Shown: positions 20,794 to 28,655 of the stretch, piece after piece
How positions within the stretch are numbered: position 1 is the stretch's first letter
Layout of the letters: every line of letters begins with the position of its first letter
NCBI GenBank assembly: GCA_009692615.1
Contig: SHYW01000046.1
Coordinates: forward strand, 1 to 36,788
From: Deltaproteobacteria bacterium
Lineage (GTDB): Bacteria > Desulfobacterota > Binatia > UBA9968
Direction of reading: 5' to 3'
DNA length: 36,788 nucleotides
Notes under the pieces: model-generated
Databases searched by the model: none
Told to the model about the DNA's origin: nothing
The model's input: only the letters and a program-made list of their open reading frames with translations
Translations under genes and position numbers: made by a program

Positions 20794-21515
20794 ATGAAGA
20801 AATTTTACAATTTTGAATCAGCTTTATTAGCCCTGGCTCTATTGGTGAGTAATGGTTGCGGTACACAGCTGAGCGATTATCGCGAGATTCTGCGCCGCGT
20901 CGAGCGCATCGCCGGTGAGTTGGACTTGGATCAAGCGCGCAAGCCGCACGAAGTTTTGGCGTTTTACGGCGTGAAGAGCGGCTATAAGGTTGCGGACCTT
21001 TGGGCTGGACGCGGCTACTACACGGCGATTCTTTCCGAGACCGTGGGCGCGAGCGGATTAGTCTAGTCTACACGCAAAATCCTAACTCGCGCGACGAGAT
21101 CAATCAGCGTTGGAAAGCGCCTAAGTTCGCCAATGTCAAAGTGGTCGATGGTACTTTTGACAAACTGCTGTTGCCGCAGGATGGCTCTCTCGATTTCGTC
21201 CTGATCCATCTCAATTATCATGATGTCGATCCGGCCATGCGCGGCGCCATGAACAAATCGATTCTCGGCGCGCTCAAACGGGGCGGCACCTACGCCGTGG
21301 TCGATCACTCGGCCAAGGACGGCACGGGCAACGAGGCGAATAAGACGCTGCATCGCATCGACAAAGGCCAAGTGATCAAAGACGTGACCGCCGCCGGTTT
21401 CACCTTCGGTAACGAAGGCGACATGCTGCGCGTGCCCAGCGACCCGCGCGATTTCAACGTCAACAAAGAGCGCAACAAAGACGATCGTTTTGTCTTGGCG
21501 TTTCAAAAACCGTAG
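20794..21515 (+). pseudogene. Exported COG4798-like methyltransferase-fold protein, frameshifted by a 5-bp duplication
   Basis: Starts at ATG 20794 with AAGGAGG (20778-20784) upstream. It has a hydrophobic leader ending in SNGC, a loose lipobox, then REILRRVERIAGELDLDQARKP and the SAM-loop-like VADLWAGRGYYTAIL. The frame ends at TAG 21064-21066, and the missing rest (YTQNPNSRDEINQRW onward to DRFVLAFQKP) continues in another frame to 21515. TAGTC is tandemly duplicated at 21059-21068; removing one copy restores GLVYTQNP and a 238-aa protein, the same size as the two intact paralogues (243 and 237 aa). The downstream part keeps VVDHSAKDGTG and LHRIDKGQV, the conserved motifs of this family. 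It is probably inactivated by replication slippage, unless this is a sequencing artefact or phase-variable. Confidence 0.8.
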
Positions 21516-21543
21516 GCTGTTACGGCTTCTTGGCTAGGAGTGG

Positions 21544-22275
21544 ATGATGACTATTGTCCGACATTTGATCGATAAACGAATGCTACCGATGGTCGTCGCG
21601 TTAGCCTTCGCCGGCTGCGCGGCGACATCGATGGTGGTGAACTACGGCGAGATTCTCACCAACGTGAACCGTCCCGAAACGGAGCGCGCCATCGACGCGG
21701 TGCGCAAGCCCAACGAGGTGATGGCTTTCTACGGCGTGAAGAGCGGTCAAAAAGTCGCCGATATTTTAGCCAGCCGCGGTTACTATACGGCGATCTTATC
21801 GCAGCTGGTTGGCGCCCAAGGCGTTGTCTACTCGGCCAATCCCGCGCCGCGCCAAGAGTTGCACGACCGATTGAAGCAGCCGGGCATGAGTAATGTGCGC
21901 GTGCTCGATGGGCCGTTCGATAAATTGGCGCTGCCCCAGGATGCTTCGCTCGATTTTGTTTTGCTCCATCTCGATTATCACGAAATCGCCGCCGACGTGC
22001 GCGGCGCGATGAACAAACGCCTCATCGGCGCGCTCAAACCGGGCGGCAGCTACGGCGTCGTCGATCATTCCGCCAAAGAAGGCGTCGGCGACAGCGAAGC
22101 GAAAACCCTGCACCGCATGGACAAGCTGTTGGTAATTAAGGAGGCGACCAGCGTCGGTTTTCGCTTGGCCGAAGAAGGCAAGATGCTAAGCCGCGCCGAC
22201 GACACGCGGGATTTTAGCGTCACCAAGATCCGCGACCGAAGCGATCGCTTTGTGCTCAAATTTGTCAAGCCGTGA
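21544..22275 (+). CDS. Lipoprotein-like COG4798-type methyltransferase-fold protein
   Basis: 243 aa. The N-terminus (LPMVVALAFAGCAATS) is a lipoprotein-type signal with Cys after AG. It then shows NRPETERAIDAVRKPNEVMA, FYGVKSGQKVADILASRGYY (the SAM loop, but with Ser replacing the first Gly of the AGxG seen in its sisters), LPQDASLDFVLLHLDYHEI, YGVVDHSAKEGVGD and TLHRMDKLLVIKEA, all features of COG4798 (annotated as predicted methyltransferases). It lies 28 bp after the frameshifted paralogue, so the pair looks like a tandem duplication in one operon; TAGGAG precedes the ATG pair at 21544/21547. Location is expected to be periplasm or outer membrane, where SAM is not known to be available, so catalysis is doubtful. 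The DHSAK and LHRxD motifs are nevertheless kept. Confidence 0.82.
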   Translation: MMTIVRHLIDKRMLPMVVALAFAGCAATSMVVNYGEILTNVNRPETERAIDAVRKPNEVMAFYGVKSGQKVADILASRGYYTAILSQLVGAQGVVYSANPAPRQELHDRLKQPGMSNVRVLDGPFDKLALPQDASLDFVLLHLDYHEIAADVRGAMNKRLIGALKPGGSYGVVDHSAKEGVGDSEAKTLHRMDKLLVIKEATSVGFRLAEEGKMLSRADDTRDFSVTKIRDRSDRFVLKFVKP

Positions 22276-22343
22276 GCGTTTGAATCCAGTTTGCGTCATC
22301 ATACGGGCGCAGCATGATGCGCTCTTAGCAATTTTCTATTCGA

Positions 22344-23420
22344 CTAGCGCAGCGCCGGCACCACTTGCTCGGCGAGCAGTTTGATCGCTTCATCATAATC
22401 CGGTCCGAGTTTGGCGAAGGCGACGTGGTCGTAGCCGAGCTTTTCGGCGTCGGCGACGAGTTCGATGATTTGATCTCGCACTTCTTCCGGCCTACCGGCG
22501 GCGTAGTAGCAGCGCAGCATTTGGTCGGTGACCAGTGTCGATGCTTGTTCGACCGTGGCGCCGGATTCGAAGGCGGCTTTCAATTTCAGCACTTGTTCGC
22601 GCGCTACTCCCATTCGACTATATTCCTCCGGCGTAAAACCCAGCGCTTCCCATTGCAGGATTGAATGCGCGACCTGGCGCTTGGGAAATTCGATCGCTGC
22701 TTCTCGGTTGCTGGAAATGGAAACATTCAGCTCGCAGACTTTGCGCAGCCGTTTGTTGGGATTCACAGCCTTCGCCGCAGCTTCAGCGGTTGCGATCATT
22801 TCTTCTAATCTGCCTGCTTTGAGCATCGGAATGTAAGTTCCTGAACTCAGCAATCCATCCATCACTTGGCCGCATAGACGCAATGCCTGCGGGCCGTTGC
22901 CGCCGCCGTAAAATTTGAAGCTCGCTTGGGGCTTGAAAGCGAGTTGGAATTTTCCGCTTTCTTGCAAGCGATAGTATTCGCAGAGAAAAGGATATTCGCC
23001 GTAGGAGAGTGCTTCGCCTGCGAGCGCGCGGCGCAATAGTTGGGTGGTCTCGCGGACCATGGCGATGGGCTTGGCCGTCTGCAGATGCTGCGGCGCTTGG
23101 CCGAGATCGCCGCGGGCGATGCCGATACTGATCTCTTCACCGGGGCGTAATTCCGATAACGCGCCGAGAGCGTCGGCGATGTCGAGCGGATTGTGAAAGT
23201 AGGGCACCATGACCGCGGTGCCCAGCCGGATCGGCACCCGCGCAGCGACGGCGGTCATGACCACCAGCTGGCTGCGGTAGCGGATGTTGTCGTTGAACCA
23301 GAGCTGGCAGAAGCCGTTATCGCGCGCCAGCTCGGCTTGGCGGATCAATTCGGGCACGGTGTAATGATTCGCCAGATGAGTGACGAATTGTAGGCCGAGC
23401 TCGCCGGTGAAGATTGCCAT
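22344..23420 (-). CDS. LLM-class flavin-dependent oxidoreductase
   Basis: 358 aa. Family marks: LIRQAELARDNGFCQLWFND, VPIRLGTAVMVPYFHNPLDI, the ELRPGEEISIGIARGDLGQ loop, the FKFYGGGNGPQALRLCGQVM segment and VRDQIIELVADAEKLGYDHV near the end. This is the bacterial luciferase-like barrel, using reduced FMN or F420, probably for oxidation of a small organic compound in the cytosol. It is not closely similar to the LLM protein at 262-1299 (different subfamily by eye). It is transcribed after the ornithine cyclodeaminase-like gene, from which it is separated by palindrome D. The ATG at 23420 has only a weak GAGAA-type ribosome site. Substrate unknown. Confidence 0.88.
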   Translation of the reverse strand: MAIFTGELGLQFVTHLANHYTVPELIRQAELARDNGFCQLWFNDNIRYRSQLVVMTAVAARVPIRLGTAVMVPYFHNPLDIADALGALSELRPGEEISIGIARGDLGQAPQHLQTAKPIAMVRETTQLLRRALAGEALSYGEYPFLCEYYRLQESGKFQLAFKPQASFKFYGGGNGPQALRLCGQVMDGLLSSGTYIPMLKAGRLEEMIATAEAAAKAVNPNKRLRKVCELNVSISSNREAAIEFPKRQVAHSILQWEALGFTPEEYSRMGVAREQVLKLKAAFESGATVEQASTLVTDQMLRCYYAAGRPEEVRDQIIELVADAEKLGYDHVAFAKLGPDYDEAIKLLAEQVVPALR

Positions 23421-23472
23421 AGTTTGCTGTTCTCAGCGCTAGCGGCGTCGTTAGCTATTGGCCGATCTGATT

Positions 23473-23556
23473 TATCACCACGAAGGACACGAAGATCACG
23501 AAGTTCGGAATTTGAACTATCCGAACCCGTCGTGTCCTTCGTGCCTTCGTGGTGAA
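23473..23556. repeat. Intergenic palindrome of 9-bp units (copy D)
   Basis: The left arm (23478 on) is CACGAAGGA, CACGAAGAT, CACGAAGTT. The right arm, read on the other strand, is CACGAAGG, CACGAAGGA, CACGA. A second inner stem TTCGGA / TCCGAA closes the loop. It lies between two minus-strand genes and could make a roughly 80-nt hairpin in their shared transcript. Confidence 0.7.
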
Positions 23557-23573
23557 AGTATTATTTCGCTCGG

Positions 23574-24515
23574 TTAGAATTCAGTCACGTTCCGCAGTTT
23601 CATTTTCTTGCGCTTGGCCTGATCGAGGACGAATTTTCCCACGGCGAGATCTTCGTCGGCAATGCCGTTGGATTGGAAAAATATTCTTTTCGGCCGCGGT
23701 CGCGGCGCGCCGCCGGCGACGTATTTTTCCAGGGGGATAATATCTTCCCAGCGCGCGCTGCCGCTTTGGCAGGCTTCGACCAAGTCGCCGCTGTCGGCTT
23801 TCGCCGCGGCGATGTCGTCGGTGACGATCAAGTCCATGCGCCGGATTAAATCATTCGAGACCTCGTGTTTCACCGTGGCGTTGGCGCCGATGGAGGCGAC
23901 CAGGACATCGTCTTTGAGATTGTTGCCGGTGGCCACCGGCGTCGTCGAATCGGTGGAGACGACCAAAATATCGGACAGTCCTTCGCACTCGTCGATGCTG
24001 TCGACTTCTTTCCAGTCGGCTTTGACGACTTTGCTCATTTGCTTGATGAAATCTTTGCGCCGTTTCGGCGTGCGGCCCCAGACGACTACTTGTTCGATGG
24101 CGCAGCTTTCGGCCACCGCTTCGACTTGAAAGGTCGCTTGCCAGCCGGGGCCGATGACTCCCAGCACTTTGCTGTTGGCCGGCGCGAGATATTTGGCCGC
24201 GACGCCGGTGGCGGCGCCGGTGCGCAGGCTGCTCAAGTAGGCCATGTTGACGATCCCTTGTATGCCGCCCTTGCCGCCGTGGAAAAGCGTGACGATGTTG
24301 GCGCCGGCGGCGTAGGAGCGCAGGCAGATCAAGTCAGAATCTTGGTGCCAGGCGGCCATCATGTTCAATTGCTTGGAGCTACCCTTCAAGCGGCGGCGCG
24401 GCACGCTGCGCATTTTTCCCGCGGCGCGGTCGCGGAACATTTTGTCGACCTGGGCGACGGCTTGGGACATGTCGATGAGTTTTCGAGTTTGCGCTTCGCT
24501 GATGATGACGGCCAT
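23574..24515 (-). CDS. Ornithine cyclodeaminase / mu-crystallin family protein
   Basis: 313 aa, the usual length. Visible blocks: IISEAQTRKLIDMSQAVAQV (N-terminal substrate-binding helix), AAWHQDSDLICLRSYA, ALFHGGKGGIQGIVNMAYLS-like substrate strands, the dinucleotide loop KVLGVIGPGWQATFQVEAVA (GxGxQA), and VLVASIGANATVKHEVSNDL. Members include ornithine cyclodeaminase, alanine dehydrogenase (archaeal), ketimine reductases and opine-type enzymes, all NAD(P)-linked and cytosolic; the exact reaction cannot be chosen. GGAGG 9 nt before the ATG (24515) is a strong ribosome site. The LLM oxidoreductase follows on the same strand after an approximately 150-bp repeat-bearing gap, so they may share a transcript. 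Confidence 0.88.
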   Translation of the reverse strand: MAVIISEAQTRKLIDMSQAVAQVDKMFRDRAAGKMRSVPRRRLKGSSKQLNMMAAWHQDSDLICLRSYAAGANIVTLFHGGKGGIQGIVNMAYLSSLRTGAATGVAAKYLAPANSKVLGVIGPGWQATFQVEAVAESCAIEQVVVWGRTPKRRKDFIKQMSKVVKADWKEVDSIDECEGLSDILVVSTDSTTPVATGNNLKDDVLVASIGANATVKHEVSNDLIRRMDLIVTDDIAAAKADSGDLVEACQSGSARWEDIIPLEKYVAGGAPRPRPKRIFFQSNGIADEDLAVGKFVLDQAKRKKMKLRNVTEF

Positions 24516-24639
24516 GAATAAAAATCCTCCATGGGTTCTATAGCCTAAGGGTAAAGTTGGGGCAAGGCGTTGGGAATTTCGCCGGCGATCGTCTATACAA
24601 CAGACGTTAACCCGCTACGTGCATGAAAAGGAGTCGGCG

Positions 24640-25437
24640 ATGGCCCAGCCGACCAATCAAGCGAAACTTTGTCCCCATTGCGCCAACAGCGTCGCGCTTG
24701 ACGCCGTGAAGTGTCCTTACTGCAAGGCGGAGTTGAGCGCGTCGTCGTCGCGCGATTTTGTGATTGGGACAGCGGCGGATAAAGAACCGGTTGAAACCCA
24801 CGTGACCGTTACCGGCGAAACGCGGCCGATAAAATTCATCGCCTTTGGCGCGGCATTTTTGCTGCTGGCGTTAGTTGGCGGCGGCGTTTGGCTCAGCCAG
24901 CGCCGCGCCGGCGATTCGGCTCTCGGGCTTGGGGAAAAATCCAACGAGCTGCAGGAAAAAAATCAGACGATTAAAACTCTCGAAGCGGAGTTGGCGAAGC
25001 TGCGCGAGGGCAATCAAGGCAGCGCGAGCCAGACCGACGAACTCAAGAACAAACTCGCCGAGAGCCAAAAAGATCTGGCGGCGCTGGAAAAAAAGTTGGC
25101 CGATGCCAATCGTGAGATCGAGCGTTTAGCTTCAGCGCGGCAGACCGCGGCGCCAGCGCGCGCCAATCCGCAGCCGGCGAATTCATCATCATCACCACCG
25201 CCTCCACCAACGCCAGCGCGGCGAGTGGCGGAGCCGGGAATTTACGAAGTGGTGCGCACGACTTCGGTGTATGAGGAACCGTCCAGTACGGCGCGCGTGC
25301 TGACGCGGGTCGAGCGCACGACCCAGGTGACCGTGGTCCGCGCGGTCGGCGACTATCTCGAAGTGCGCTCGAAACACGATAACCCGCCTGGCTTTATTCG
25401 CGCCGATGATGCTATGTTCGTCGGCAGAGCCAACTGA
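24640..25437 (+). CDS. Zinc-ribbon, membrane, coiled-coil, SH3-domain protein
   Basis: 265 aa from the ATG at 24640; AAGGAG (24628-24633) is 6 nt upstream, so the upstream in-frame ATG at 24619 is rejected. Domains in order: a two-CxxC zinc ribbon (CPHC at 11-14, CPYC at 25-28), a disordered linker, one membrane helix (about 64-85, FIAFGAAFLLLALVGGGVW), a coiled coil (about 100-166, rich in heptad L and K/E), a Pro/Ala/Ser linker (about 171-194), and a bacterial SH3 domain (about 200-262, YEVVRTTSVYEEPSSTARVL). The topology suggests a cytoplasmic zinc ribbon and a periplasmic SH3 that could bind peptidoglycan or protein. Role unknown; possibly an envelope sensor or scaffold (inference). Confidence 0.8.
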   Translation: MAQPTNQAKLCPHCANSVALDAVKCPYCKAELSASSSRDFVIGTAADKEPVETHVTVTGETRPIKFIAFGAAFLLLALVGGGVWLSQRRAGDSALGLGEKSNELQEKNQTIKTLEAELAKLREGNQGSASQTDELKNKLAESQKDLAALEKKLADANREIERLASARQTAAPARANPQPANSSSSPPPPPTPARRVAEPGIYEVVRTTSVYEEPSSTARVLTRVERTTQVTVVRAVGDYLEVRSKHDNPPGFIRADDAMFVGRAN

Positions 25438-25525
25438 GCGAATGGGGCCGGCGTGACAAGTTATTTCGTGCAATCATGGCGCATTCGATTTCATCCCGAC
25501 AGCCAGCTCCGAAGGAACCGCCCCA

Positions 25526-26806
25526 TTGGAAGAACCGGCAGCCATCGATTCGACAACCGCGAACATTCGAGCGCAGGGATTTTTAGCCCAAACTTTTTCC
25601 TCACTACGCCATAAAAATTATCGTTATCTGTGGTTCGGCACCGTCTGTATGAGCGCCGGCCAATGGATTCAGCAGGTGACGCTGGGCTGGTTGGTGTACG
25701 ACATCACCGGATCGTCGGTGCTGCTCGGCATGCTCAACGGCCTGCGCGCTTTGCCGTTTCTGCTCGTCAGTCCGGTGGCGGGCGTGGTGGCGGACCGCAC
25801 CGATCGCAAAAAAGTGCTGCTCTTCGCTCAGTATGTTTTGATGTTCACCACCGTACTCATGGGCACGGTGGTGGCGGCCGGCTTCGTGCGCATCTGGCAG
25901 GTGTTCACCTTTACTTTCATCACCGCTATCGCTTGGTCCTTCGTCGATCCGGTGCGCCAGAGCATGGTGCCATCGCTGGTGCCCAAGGAAGAATTGATGA
26001 ACGCCGTAGCGCTCAACTCGGCGGCGTTCAACATGACTAAGGTCGTCGGACCATCGCTGGGCGGCTTGCTGATCGCGCTGTTCGGCGCCAGCGGCAATTT
26101 TTTCGTTCAAGGCGCGGCCTACGCCGGCGTGTGTCTTTCGATCTATTGGATGGTGGTGCCGGCCAATTCGGCCCAGGCGCGGCGCACCTCGGCGCTGGAA
26201 AATTTAAAAGAGGGAGTGAGTTATGTCTGGTCCAACGACGCGGTGTTCGCGCTCATGATCAGTGCCTTGATTCCGCGCGTCATCGCCATGCCTTACCAAA
26301 CTTTGATGCCGGTGTTTCAAAAAGACGTGCTCAAGGTCGGGCCCGAAGGCTTGGGTATGTTGTACGCCGCCCCTGGGCTTGGCGCGTGTCTCGCCGGCTT
26401 TGCTCTGGCGACTTTGTCGAGCCGCATTCGTCGCCAAGGCATCGTTTTGCTATCCAGTTTGATCGCCCTCGGGATCGGCATGAATATTTTCGCCTGGACG
26501 ACTTCGTTTGTCCTCGCGCTGATCGTGCTGGTGGCGATCGGCGCCTGCCAGATTTTTTATATGGCGACGACCAACACCATGCTGCAAGTGCTTGTGCCCG
26601 ATCATTTGCGCGGTCGGGTGATGAGCATTTACATGCTCGACCGTGGGCTGATGCCGATCGGCGCCATGAGCGCCGGCGTCAGCGCGCACTGGATCGGGGC
26701 GCCGGCGACGGTGGGTTATATGGGCTTGGTGGTAATCGTGCTGGCGCTATTTCTCGCCTGGCGGTCGCCAGTGATCCGCGATCTGGCCGTCACCATGGAC
26801 CATTGA
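25526..26806 (+). CDS. MFS transporter, EntS-like exporter family
   Basis: 426 aa, about 12 membrane helices. The start is TTG 25526, with GAAGGA (25511-25516) about 9 nt upstream; no ATG gives a complete first helix. Family marks: SLRHKNYRYLWFGTVCMSAG, IQQVTLGWLVYDITGSSVLL, the loop-2 motif SPVAGVVADRTDRKKVLL, FVDPVRQSMVPSLVPKEEL and LVPDHLRGRVMSIYMLD. These are typical of the MFS_3/EntS branch, which exports siderophores, macrolides or other small molecules across the inner membrane using the proton gradient. The substrate is unknown. It sits between the zinc-ribbon/SH3 gene and an exported methyltransferase-fold gene on the same strand. Confidence 0.88.
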   Translation: MEEPAAIDSTTANIRAQGFLAQTFSSLRHKNYRYLWFGTVCMSAGQWIQQVTLGWLVYDITGSSVLLGMLNGLRALPFLLVSPVAGVVADRTDRKKVLLFAQYVLMFTTVLMGTVVAAGFVRIWQVFTFTFITAIAWSFVDPVRQSMVPSLVPKEELMNAVALNSAAFNMTKVVGPSLGGLLIALFGASGNFFVQGAAYAGVCLSIYWMVVPANSAQARRTSALENLKEGVSYVWSNDAVFALMISALIPRVIAMPYQTLMPVFQKDVLKVGPEGLGMLYAAPGLGACLAGFALATLSSRIRRQGIVLLSSLIALGIGMNIFAWTTSFVLALIVLVAIGACQIFYMATTNTMLQVLVPDHLRGRVMSIYMLDRGLMPIGAMSAGVSAHWIGAPATVGYMGLVVIVLALFLAWRSPVIRDLAVTMDH

Positions 26807-26854
26807 CTTGCCCCGGCTGAACTTCCTATGATCGTAACGCGATCGGGAGGCGTT

Positions 26855-27775
26855 ATGAAATTTTTAGCGCTGCTGGTTTTTCTTCTTCATTCTACCGTCG
26901 GCATTCACGCCGCGGCCGGCCAAGGGTTTCGCGGCTCTTATAGCGCGCCGCGCGGCGCGGTCGTGACCAGCAGCTCCGGTTCCACGGTGATTGACGCGCG
27001 CTCGGGATTTGCCCACGGCACGGTGATCGTCAGTCCGCCGGTGCGAGGTTTTGCTGTGGCGCCCAACGTGCAGTTTTATGCGCCGCCGCTTGTCGTCGCG
27101 CCGCAGTTCGTGCCGCAACACTATTATCCCTACCGTTACGCGCCGGTGGCACGCTATCCGAGCGTGGTGATCATCGACACTCCTTACGTTTCGGAGCGGA
27201 CGATCGTGACCCAAATCGCCCCCGGCGTGCTGCGGTCCGAGCGGCGTCCGACTGAAGTTCCTCCCGGCGATCCGCGCACGCGGACAGCCGGACAGTTGGC
27301 GCCCTTTGATCCGACGCCTCAGGAAGTGGTCGAACGCATGCTCAAGCTGGCCGCTCTCAATAGCGGCGACGTGCTCTACGATCTCGGCGCCGGCGACGGC
27401 CGCGTGGTAATCGCCGCGGCGAAAAAGTATGGCGCCAAGGCGGTCGGTTTCGAGATCGATCCTGGTCTAGTCAAGTTGGCGCGGGAAAATGTTCGTAAAC
27501 AAGGCGTGGAGCATCTCGTCGAAATCCGCCAACAGGATTTTCTGAGTGCTGAATTATCGCCCGCTTCGGTGGTGACGTTGTATCTATCTTACGACGGCAA
27601 CTTGGCATTGCGGCAGAAGCTCTTGAATGAACTCAAGCCCGGCGCGCGGCTGGTATCGTATACTTTCGACATGGGTCAGTGGCAGCCCAAGATCACGGAA
27701 CGTTATCGCGACGGCGGCGGCGACATGCATGTGATTTATTTTTGGCAGATCGGCGAACCGCTGGCGTTCCGTTAA
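26855..27775 (+). CDS. Exported class I methyltransferase-fold protein
   Basis: 306 aa from the ATG at 26855; GGGAGG (26845-26850) lies just upstream, and the product then begins with a signal peptide (KFLALLVFLLHSTVGIHAAA). Residues about 25-140 are a Pro/Tyr/Val-rich, probably extended region (YYPYRYAPVARYPSVVI). The C-terminal half is a Rossmann methyltransferase domain: VLYDLGAGDGRVVIAAAKKY (SAM loop, intact D-x-G-x-G-x-G), AVGFEIDPGLVKLAREN (acidic ribose-binding residue), then QQDFLSAELSPASVVTLYLS and LLNELKPGARLVSYTFDMG. It is not a paralogue of the COG4798-like proteins on either side, yet it is likewise exported. Enzyme or SAM-free binding protein cannot be decided. Confidence 0.83.
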   Translation: MKFLALLVFLLHSTVGIHAAAGQGFRGSYSAPRGAVVTSSSGSTVIDARSGFAHGTVIVSPPVRGFAVAPNVQFYAPPLVVAPQFVPQHYYPYRYAPVARYPSVVIIDTPYVSERTIVTQIAPGVLRSERRPTEVPPGDPRTRTAGQLAPFDPTPQEVVERMLKLAALNSGDVLYDLGAGDGRVVIAAAKKYGAKAVGFEIDPGLVKLARENVRKQGVEHLVEIRQQDFLSAELSPASVVTLYLSYDGNLALRQKLLNELKPGARLVSYTFDMGQWQPKITERYRDGGGDMHVIYFWQIGEPLAFR

Positions 27776-27811
27776 GCGCGACAGTGCTACAATCAAAAAA
27801 GGAAGAACATA

Positions 27812-27894
27812 TTCACCACGAAGGACACGAAGAGCACGAAGGTCGGAGTAATAATTATCCGAAACCTTCGTGTCCTTCGTGCTCTTCGTGGTGA
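27812..27894. repeat. Intergenic palindrome of 9-bp units (copy E)
   Basis: The cleanest copy. The left arm is CACGAAGGA, CACGAAGAG, CACGAAGGT; the right arm on the other strand is CACGAAGAG, CACGAAGGA, CACGAAGGT. They are joined by TCGGA...TCCGA and an AT-rich loop. It lies between two plus-strand genes. Confidence 0.75.
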
Positions 27895-27941
27895 GATAGG
27901 TCTTCTCATTCAACGGGAAAATTTGGAGCTTTACTAAAACA

Positions 27942-28655
27942 ATGAACGGCGGCGAGCACATTGCACGTCTACTCTTAGGCTTCGTCATTTGGTTGCCGAT
28001 TGGCAATGCTCACGCGCAAGACTTGCGCGCGATTCTGGCCGATCGCGATCGGCCGGACAACGAACGGGCGATGGATGGGGATCGTAAGCCGGAACAGCTG
28101 ATAATATTTTTCAACGTGAAGGTTGGCGCGAAAAGCGCCGATCTGATGGCGGGAGCGGGTTATTACACGGCGCTATTGGCGTTGACCGTCGGTCCCAGCG
28201 GTGTGGTCTACTCGGCGAATCCGTCGATCAAGCGGCAAACCCGCGAGCGTTTCAGCGCGCCTCGTTTCGCCAACGTTAAATTACTGGAAGGGGCGATGGA
28301 GCAAGTGGCATTGCCGGCCGACGGCTCGCTGGATTTTATCTTGATCCATCTCGACTATCATATGATCGGCGCGCCGGCGCGGCTGGAGATGAACCGGCGA
28401 ATTTTCGCTGCGCTCAAAAGCGGCGGGATTTACGGCGTGGTCGATCACGCCGCCAAAGAAGGCGCCGGCGAGGACGACCGCAAGAAATTGCATCGCATCG
28501 ACAAACAGATCGTGGTCAAAGAAACCGCCGGCGCCGGTTTTAGATTCGCCAGCGAAGCACTCATGCTGCGCCACGCCGCCGACGCTCACGATCAGCCGTC
28601 ACAAAAACTCTACGGTAAAAGCGATCGCTTCGTTGTGGCGTTGCGCAAGCCGTAG
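27942..28655 (+). CDS. Exported COG4798-type methyltransferase-fold protein
   Basis: 237 aa; third member of the family in this window. The signal peptide (LLLGFVIWLPIGNAHA) is probably cut before QDLRAI. Conserved features shared with the two genes at 20794-22275: DRPDNERAMDGDRKPEQ, the SAM-loop-like ADLMAGAGYYTALL, VVYSANPSIKRQTRERF, LPADGSLDFILIHLDYHMI, YGVVDHAAKEGAGED and KLHRIDKQIVVKETAGAGF, ending DRFVVALRKP. It is a secretory rather than lipoprotein form. It stands about 5.7 kb from the tandem pair, separated by unrelated genes, so the duplication is not recent. No strong ribosome site precedes the ATG. The biochemical role is unknown; periplasmic location makes ordinary SAM chemistry questionable. 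Confidence 0.83.
   Translation: MNGGEHIARLLLGFVIWLPIGNAHAQDLRAILADRDRPDNERAMDGDRKPEQLIIFFNVKVGAKSADLMAGAGYYTALLALTVGPSGVVYSANPSIKRQTRERFSAPRFANVKLLEGAMEQVALPADGSLDFILIHLDYHMIGAPARLEMNRRIFAALKSGGIYGVVDHAAKEGAGEDDRKKLHRIDKQIVVKETAGAGFRFASEALMLRHAADAHDQPSQKLYGKSDRFVVALRKP

Follow-up and report, generated by a model that had tools for sequence, protein, structure and literature searches.

The window, meaning the whole 36,788-nucleotide stretch analysed (contig SHYW01000046.1, here C46, of a Deltaproteobacteria bacterium placed in the Binatia), carries at 20.8-28.7 kb three paralogues of one methyltransferase-fold family and one protein from another methyltransferase family. The paralogues are named after their first positions (20794, 21544 and 27942) and their family is called the 27942-type; the fourth protein, 26855, is aKMT-like, its domain resembling the archaeal lysine methyltransferase aKMT. 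We hold with about even confidence that these are two families of extracytoplasmic methyltransferase-fold enzymes and that at least one depends on S-adenosylmethionine (SAM). This reading is based on homology, the predicted 27942-type fold, conserved signals, conserved residues and gene neighbourhood, and from these we infer localisation, SAM use outside the cytoplasm, substrates and a transporter role. SAM chemistry is generally taken as confined to the bacterial cytoplasm. Exported enzymes with every examined SAM residue, in many copies and beside transporters, make that assumption directly testable. The genome to which C46 belongs (G000) has 5.05 Mb in 186 contigs and is 98.7% complete. The genes in question are:

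20794..21066, + strand: first 27942-type paralogue, 5' part (90 codons), broken by a frame change
21063..21515, + strand: first 27942-type paralogue, 3' part in another frame, with LNYHD, DHSAK and LHRID
21544..22275, + strand: second paralogue of the 27942-type, intact; the lipobox LAFAGC, with its Cys at about 21616, predicts a lipoprotein; tree partner L111
26855..27775, + strand: aKMT-like class I methyltransferase; signal of signal peptidase I (SPase I) type, then about 120 residues without a Pfam match, then the domain (27284-27772)
27942..28655, + strand: third paralogue of the 27942-type, fast-evolving, with YHM in place of YHD; signal AHA^QD of SPase I type

Export signals

Signals were scored with a simple rule of our own, which asks for a hydrophobic core, a non-negative charge before the core, and either a lipobox or an SPase I-type site. 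The rule passes 6 of 245 internal Met starts; among ten other genes of the window it passes two, a binding protein for which a signal is expected and an SDR protein that is a false positive. An earlier note on this DNA had assigned secretion signals to all four proteins, and three of them pass: 21544 as a lipoprotein (FAGC), 27942 (AHA^QD) and 26855 (AAA^GQ) as SPase I substrates. The assignment is weaker for 20794, which has a strong hydrophobic stretch but a cleavage site, SNGC, that fails the rule; in its close relative L110/L031 the lipobox is normal (VAGC).

Relatives of the 27942-type carry such signals widely. Twenty-five of 30 loci scored (three from the same genome, 27 from related genomes) pass the rule. 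The misses are L006, L013, L023, L024 and L030: the N-terminus is hydrophobic in L006, L023 and L030 but not in L024, and in L013 it is cut by the contig end or the start is uncertain. A scan of an 84,980-species collection gave 115 confirmed relatives, and the best 80 of the 115 were kept. Of these best 80, 68 pass (40 lipoproteins and 28 SPase I substrates), while seven of the 12 misses are truncated at contig ends and five look signal-like by eye. Composition-preserving shuffles of the 73 uncut N-termini would yield 7.7 passes and 0.65 lipoboxes, against 68 and 40 observed. Close relatives interchange lipoprotein and SPase I signals, in many myxobacterial copies a Pro/Ala/Ser stretch comes after the lipobox, and in the window's lineage a cleavage-type site directly precedes the conserved domain. 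Export is thus well supported by predicted signals for the 27942-type and, as described below, for the aKMT-like family.

By record title the relatives belong to alpha- and betaproteobacteria, Myxococcales/Polyangia, Deltaproteobacteria and Binatia (with Binatus and Binataceae among further matches), along with a few other names; Rhodanobacter and Nevskia, also present, we take to be gammaproteobacteria. Two cultured myxobacteria carry the 27942-type, Polyangium fumosum DSM 14668 (L138) and Polyangium sp. y55x31 (L128, genome G078). At E 0.001 or better, 26 of 39 genomes related to that of the window match the 27942-type, many of these hits being weak ones to methyltransferases of other kinds; none of ten genomes from other families of the same order has a match. 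A comparison of the 27942 protein with viral contigs gave 11 pattern stretches, none confirmed as a relative.

By the rule, most methyltransferase-like places in this genome carry no signal. Of 51 places resembling class I methyltransferases, a count that omits a second piece of one of them, 14 pass and 37 fail, housekeeping types among the failures; one failing place, on C97, holds an aKMT-like copy whose signal was recognised by eye. A passing spermidine-synthase-like gene at C18:50472 was rejected as an exported methyltransferase, having several membrane spans by eye, and counts as a false positive. Three methyltransferase folds of other families (C9 12911, C21 47468 and C78 20955, all in G000) also have an N-terminal signal or anchor by the rule. 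Protein-L-isoaspartate methyltransferase (PIMT) was tried as a cytosolic control and dropped: 30 loci were fetched and 27 scored, and because eight of the 27 pass, it is not a clean control. The passing PIMT relatives are L075, L078, L079, L080, L082, L083, L087 and L088.

A conserved SAM site in the aKMT-like family

The view that 26855 is a separate class I methyltransferase, unrelated to the 27942-type, holds. GGGAGG lies just 5' of its start (an alternative in-frame ATG is at 26828), and its domain aligns almost end to end with aKMT (5fa8, E 8.4e-35; aKMT is also PDB 5jwj and NCBIfam NF041081) and with the relative 5bxy (E 1.2e-42). All have the SAM loop DLGxGDGR and the strand-2 acid in common, except that 5jwj has Ala for the loop Asp. 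Unlike aKMT, the 26855 domain sits behind a signal peptide and is one of eight strong copies in the genome. Seven of the eight pass the signal rule (L071 only from a non-ATG start) and the other, L066, has a signal by eye. Three further matches are weak and belong to other methyltransferases; only one of them, the UbiE-like L074, has a signal.

Fifty-six distinct aKMT-like domains were collected from relatives and from the flanks of 27942-type genes, domains of <120 residues and identical ones being dropped. Of these, 45 pass the signal rule, eight pass on a relaxed reading, two (L057 and L108) lack a signal and one lies at a contig edge. With the window's domain added as reference (57 rows), D33, G35, G37, D38 and G39 are invariant, position 57 is Glu or Asp throughout, and D85 is kept in 54 rows and replaced by Asn in three. 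Judged by these residues, the family has both the SAM loop and the strand-2 acid of a class I SAM methyltransferase, and because the exported members keep every such residue, loss of SAM binding is unlikely. The earlier note's suggestion that such folds were recruited for another periplasmic job therefore does not suit 26855, in whose family these SAM-site residues are kept in 57/57 rows, most of them exported. Among 29 genomes of the class, strong aKMT-like matches are listed only in three sampled genomes of the window's family and in G036, and none of the 29 passes the NF041081 cut-off.

Two observations concern this family in the window's genome. At L316 (C110, 4773-7023) three exported aKMT-like genes stand in tandem, extended at the C-terminus by about 90 residues that have no Pfam name. 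L074 (C18, 46874-47266) carries the lipobox LAGCA as well as a SAM loop and acid of canonical form, and a fused-MFS/spermidine-synthase-like gene lies about 2 kb downstream.

Fold and putative active site of the 27942-type

An AlphaFold2 model of mature 27942 (mean pLDDT 97.3) bears out the methyltransferase fold proposed earlier: it matches class I methyltransferases, all 1000 aligned chains having Z of at least 8 and the best 20.8. The modelled protein has a class I Rossmann-like fold. The best structural match, 3dh0 (Z 20.8, rmsd 2.4, 172 residues), is an Aquifex aeolicus SAM-dependent methyltransferase grouped with ArsM/UbiE-like class I enzymes; at position 93 it has Asp, whereas Asn prevails in the 27942-type.

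In 82 aligned rows, Y139, H140, D168, H169, H184 and R185 are invariant, although for D168 and H169 this is partly by selection because both lie in the scan pattern. Asp or Glu at 141 is kept in 81 rows, giving YHD or YHE; the sole exception is 27942, with YHM. In the glycine-rich SAM loop, D/E67 and G73 are present in 82/82 rows, Gly71 in 63 and Gly69 in 18. The most natural reading of this pattern of residues is that the 27942-type is an active enzyme with an unusual ligand pocket.

The three copies in the window are true paralogues that retain their motifs, as had been noted: DHSAK, DHSAK and DHAAK, and LHRID, LHRMD and LHRID, in 20794, 21544 and 27942, respectively. Both 21544 and the second half of 20794 are 46% identical to 27942. 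Two details of the earlier description did not survive. The first copy is not an intact gene, its frame ending at 21066 after 90 codons and homology resuming in another frame at 21063-21512; because intact relatives exist (L110), the break is either recent or an error in the sequence. Nor is the ASRG of 21544 an oddity, Ser occupying that place in 7/82 rows and Arg the next in 16/82. In a tree, the partner of 21544 is L111 (support 100/100) and that of the 3' half of 20794 is L110 (91/79), both partners belonging to a single related genome. The branch of 27942 is very long (0.87; the median is 0.19), and its grouping with L105, L106 and L107 is weak (84/67). By its sequence, 21544 is the only copy of the three that looks fully competent and is the most likely to work.

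Gene neighbourhoods and transporters

The aKMT-like gene of the window directly follows a transporter gene on the same strand, whose role as a partner is presumed:

25526..26806, + strand: MFS transporter gene, directly 5' of the aKMT-like gene

Its top NCBIfam matches are an H+ antiporter and EntS, both under cut-off. The window's family has a recurrent gene order, found whole or in part: ABC transporter, 27942-type, luciferase-like, ornithine cyclodeaminase-like, zinc-ribbon/SH3, MFS, aKMT-like and/or 27942-type, binding proteins and rhodanese. Among 20 contigs of this family picked for holding one of these genes, the MFS gene is followed by an aKMT-like gene in six (G017, G014, G004, G001, G003 and G005), and in six others (G012, G019, G007, G009, G013 and G006) a 27942-type gene adjoins the MFS gene on either side.

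A Pfam scan of the first open reading frames (ORFs) beside 27942-type genes (58/75 downstream, 56/71 upstream) showed no universal partner. Ten of the 58 downstream ORFs were methyltransferases, which led to the aKMT-like arrays. Whole genomes were searched behind 26 of the 80 loci: 17 titled beta/Burkholderiales, L140 (titled Chitinophaga and grouped with them) and eight others. In the mostly betaproteobacterial group of 18, the aKMT-like matches at 1e-8 number 4 to 15 in 14 genomes, and the other four show none or a single weak one. In all 14, an aKMT-like gene lies beside the 27942-type gene, within the examined flank of up to 4 kb.

Ten array stretches were read. They hold 38 aKMT-like ORFs, of which 31 pass a looser rule that accepts any M, V or L near the start as start. 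An APC amino-acid permease gene ends all five arrays whose 3' end is covered (L306, L307, L309, L311 and L312; four of them checked for the family). In five of the ten stretches (L306 to L310, with the family checked for L306) the opposite side holds a divergent gene for a fused MFS/spermidine synthase. In the window's lineage an EamA-like transporter, judged as such by eye, lies near the C110 array and near two arrays related to it. APC and DMT/EamA families include SAM transporters. Both are large general families and no linked transporter is common to all lineages; the linked genes are therefore only a lead as SAM carriers.

Proposed mechanism and its precedents

Proteins of both families would bear a Sec-type signal of the lipoprotein or SPase I kind, cross the membrane unfolded and work in the envelope. 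There 26855 would most likely use SAM to methylate lysines of envelope proteins or some other amine. SAM would have to reach the periplasm, perhaps via a genetically linked transporter; candidate carriers are the MFS protein here and, for the betaproteobacterial arrays, their amino-acid permease or their fused MFS/spermidine synthase. The 27942-type may act beside the aKMT-like protein via its invariant Tyr-His-Asp / Asp-His / His-Arg site, with SAM perhaps as ligand. Tentatively, and at well under even confidence, one may go further and propose a dedicated extracytoplasmic methylation system in at least this lineage and Betaproteobacteria, in which the transporter of an adjacent gene delivers SAM or a SAM-like donor for use by exported aKMT-like arrays and a 27942-type lipoprotein partner.

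SAM is imported into mitochondria, and one parallel, drawn by description, is found there. FAM173A/B (ANT-KMT and ATPSc-KMT) are distant aKMT relatives and act at an organelle membrane; they differ from the aKMT-like proteins in having known substrates and an uncleaved hydrophobic segment that likely anchors them (PMC9006661). Extracytoplasmic SAM use, if true, implies a SAM route across the inner membrane, comparable to the Golgi SAM transporters that PMC10349129, on a fungal N-terminal histidine methyltransferase, mentions as serving plant cell-wall methylation. No bacterial periplasmic methyltransferase was among the literature matches listed, and no paper with periplasmic-methylation phrases was found in the searched literature, many subscription papers lying outside the text searched in both cases; the same literature gave no paper in which COG4798, the name that the earlier note used for the three paralogues, occurs together with methyltransferase.

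Weighing the evidence

Several points weigh against the view that these are extracytoplasmic enzymes of which at least one uses SAM. The home-written signal rule is crude. Periplasmic SAM is itself a supposition and its source outside the cytoplasm hypothetical. No single transporter is common to all lineages examined, and among the eight genomes outside the mostly betaproteobacterial group only the myxobacterial G078 has an aKMT-like copy, a single strong one that lies outside the examined flank of its 27942-type gene. Against NF041081 (protein-lysine N-methyltransferase) 26855 scores 124.6 bits, below the curated cut-off of 200, and lysine as its substrate is therefore a guess. The 27942 and 20794 copies may themselves be decaying. 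At position 93 of the 27942-type, where a strand-2 acid normally binds the ribose of SAM, 52/82 rows have Asn and only 3/82 have Asp or Glu; all three window copies have Asn and so lack the ribose acid of a class I SAM methyltransferase. Finally, export is not universal among more distant relatives on plasmids: of seven examined from 34 records found with L130 as query, four have a signal and three (L332, L333 and L336) begin at the domain itself. Export is therefore the rule for the nearer family and not for the whole superfamily. The three signal-less proteins, from plasmids of Nostoc, Rhizobium and Paraburkholderia, are very similar by inspection, which suggests horizontal spread.

The strongest alternative, possible though distinctly less probable than an even chance, is that the folds were recruited for a SAM-independent extracytoplasmic job, binding another ligand or doing chemistry with it, perhaps with the help of a metal that the His and the acid of YHD would hold. 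For the 27942-type the recruitment suggested earlier may apply, and its ligand may be other than SAM: the strand-2 acid is rare and the glycine loop drifts (the first loop glycine is in 18/82 rows), while the residues listed above, D168 and H169 being favoured by the scan pattern, are invariant. If so, this would be a widespread envelope enzyme family with a reaction yet to be found. The metal idea draws on CysG and BelI, which PMC11408123 describes as metal-dependent carboxyl O-methyltransferases with a His-His pair holding Ca2+. CysG variants match the 27942 model with Z 17.4 to 17.7 and 21 to 22% identity. Of the His-His-Asp metal site only the His pair aligns: in BelI (a weak sequence match, E 0.017) it falls on the His of YHD and the residue after it, where 27942 has His-Met and 81/82 family rows have His-Asp/Glu. 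A CysG/BelI-like metal site was set aside, the other metal and substrate residues not being seen to align, and both enzymes themselves use SAM. The strand-2 acid is also missing in the signal-less L332, L333 and L336, while Glu is present in the signal-bearing L331; its loss does not track export and is mostly a family trait. The aKMT-like family, moreover, retains its whole SAM site.

It is improbable that the N-termini are uncleaved anchors or wrong starts and that the domains act in the SAM-rich cytoplasm. The poor cleavage site of 20794, the wholly signal-less relatives and the uncleaved segment that likely anchors FAM173 (PMC9006661) would agree with this, but 40 lipoboxes in 73 N-termini, the cleavage-type site just before the conserved domain in the window's lineage, and the 37 of 51 methyltransferase-like places in the same genome that fail the rule, housekeeping types included, argue for export. 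Equally doubtful is that these are decaying local paralogues without current function: 20794 is broken and 27942 is long-branched and lacks the motif acid, but 21544 and 26855 are intact and their neighbours are conserved across the family.

Other features of the stretch

A repeated motif, CACCACGAAGGACACGAAG, and its near-complement occur in intergenic DNA at 23476, 27814 and 27866 of the stretch. One forward and one reverse copy of it sit between genes 26855 and 27942.

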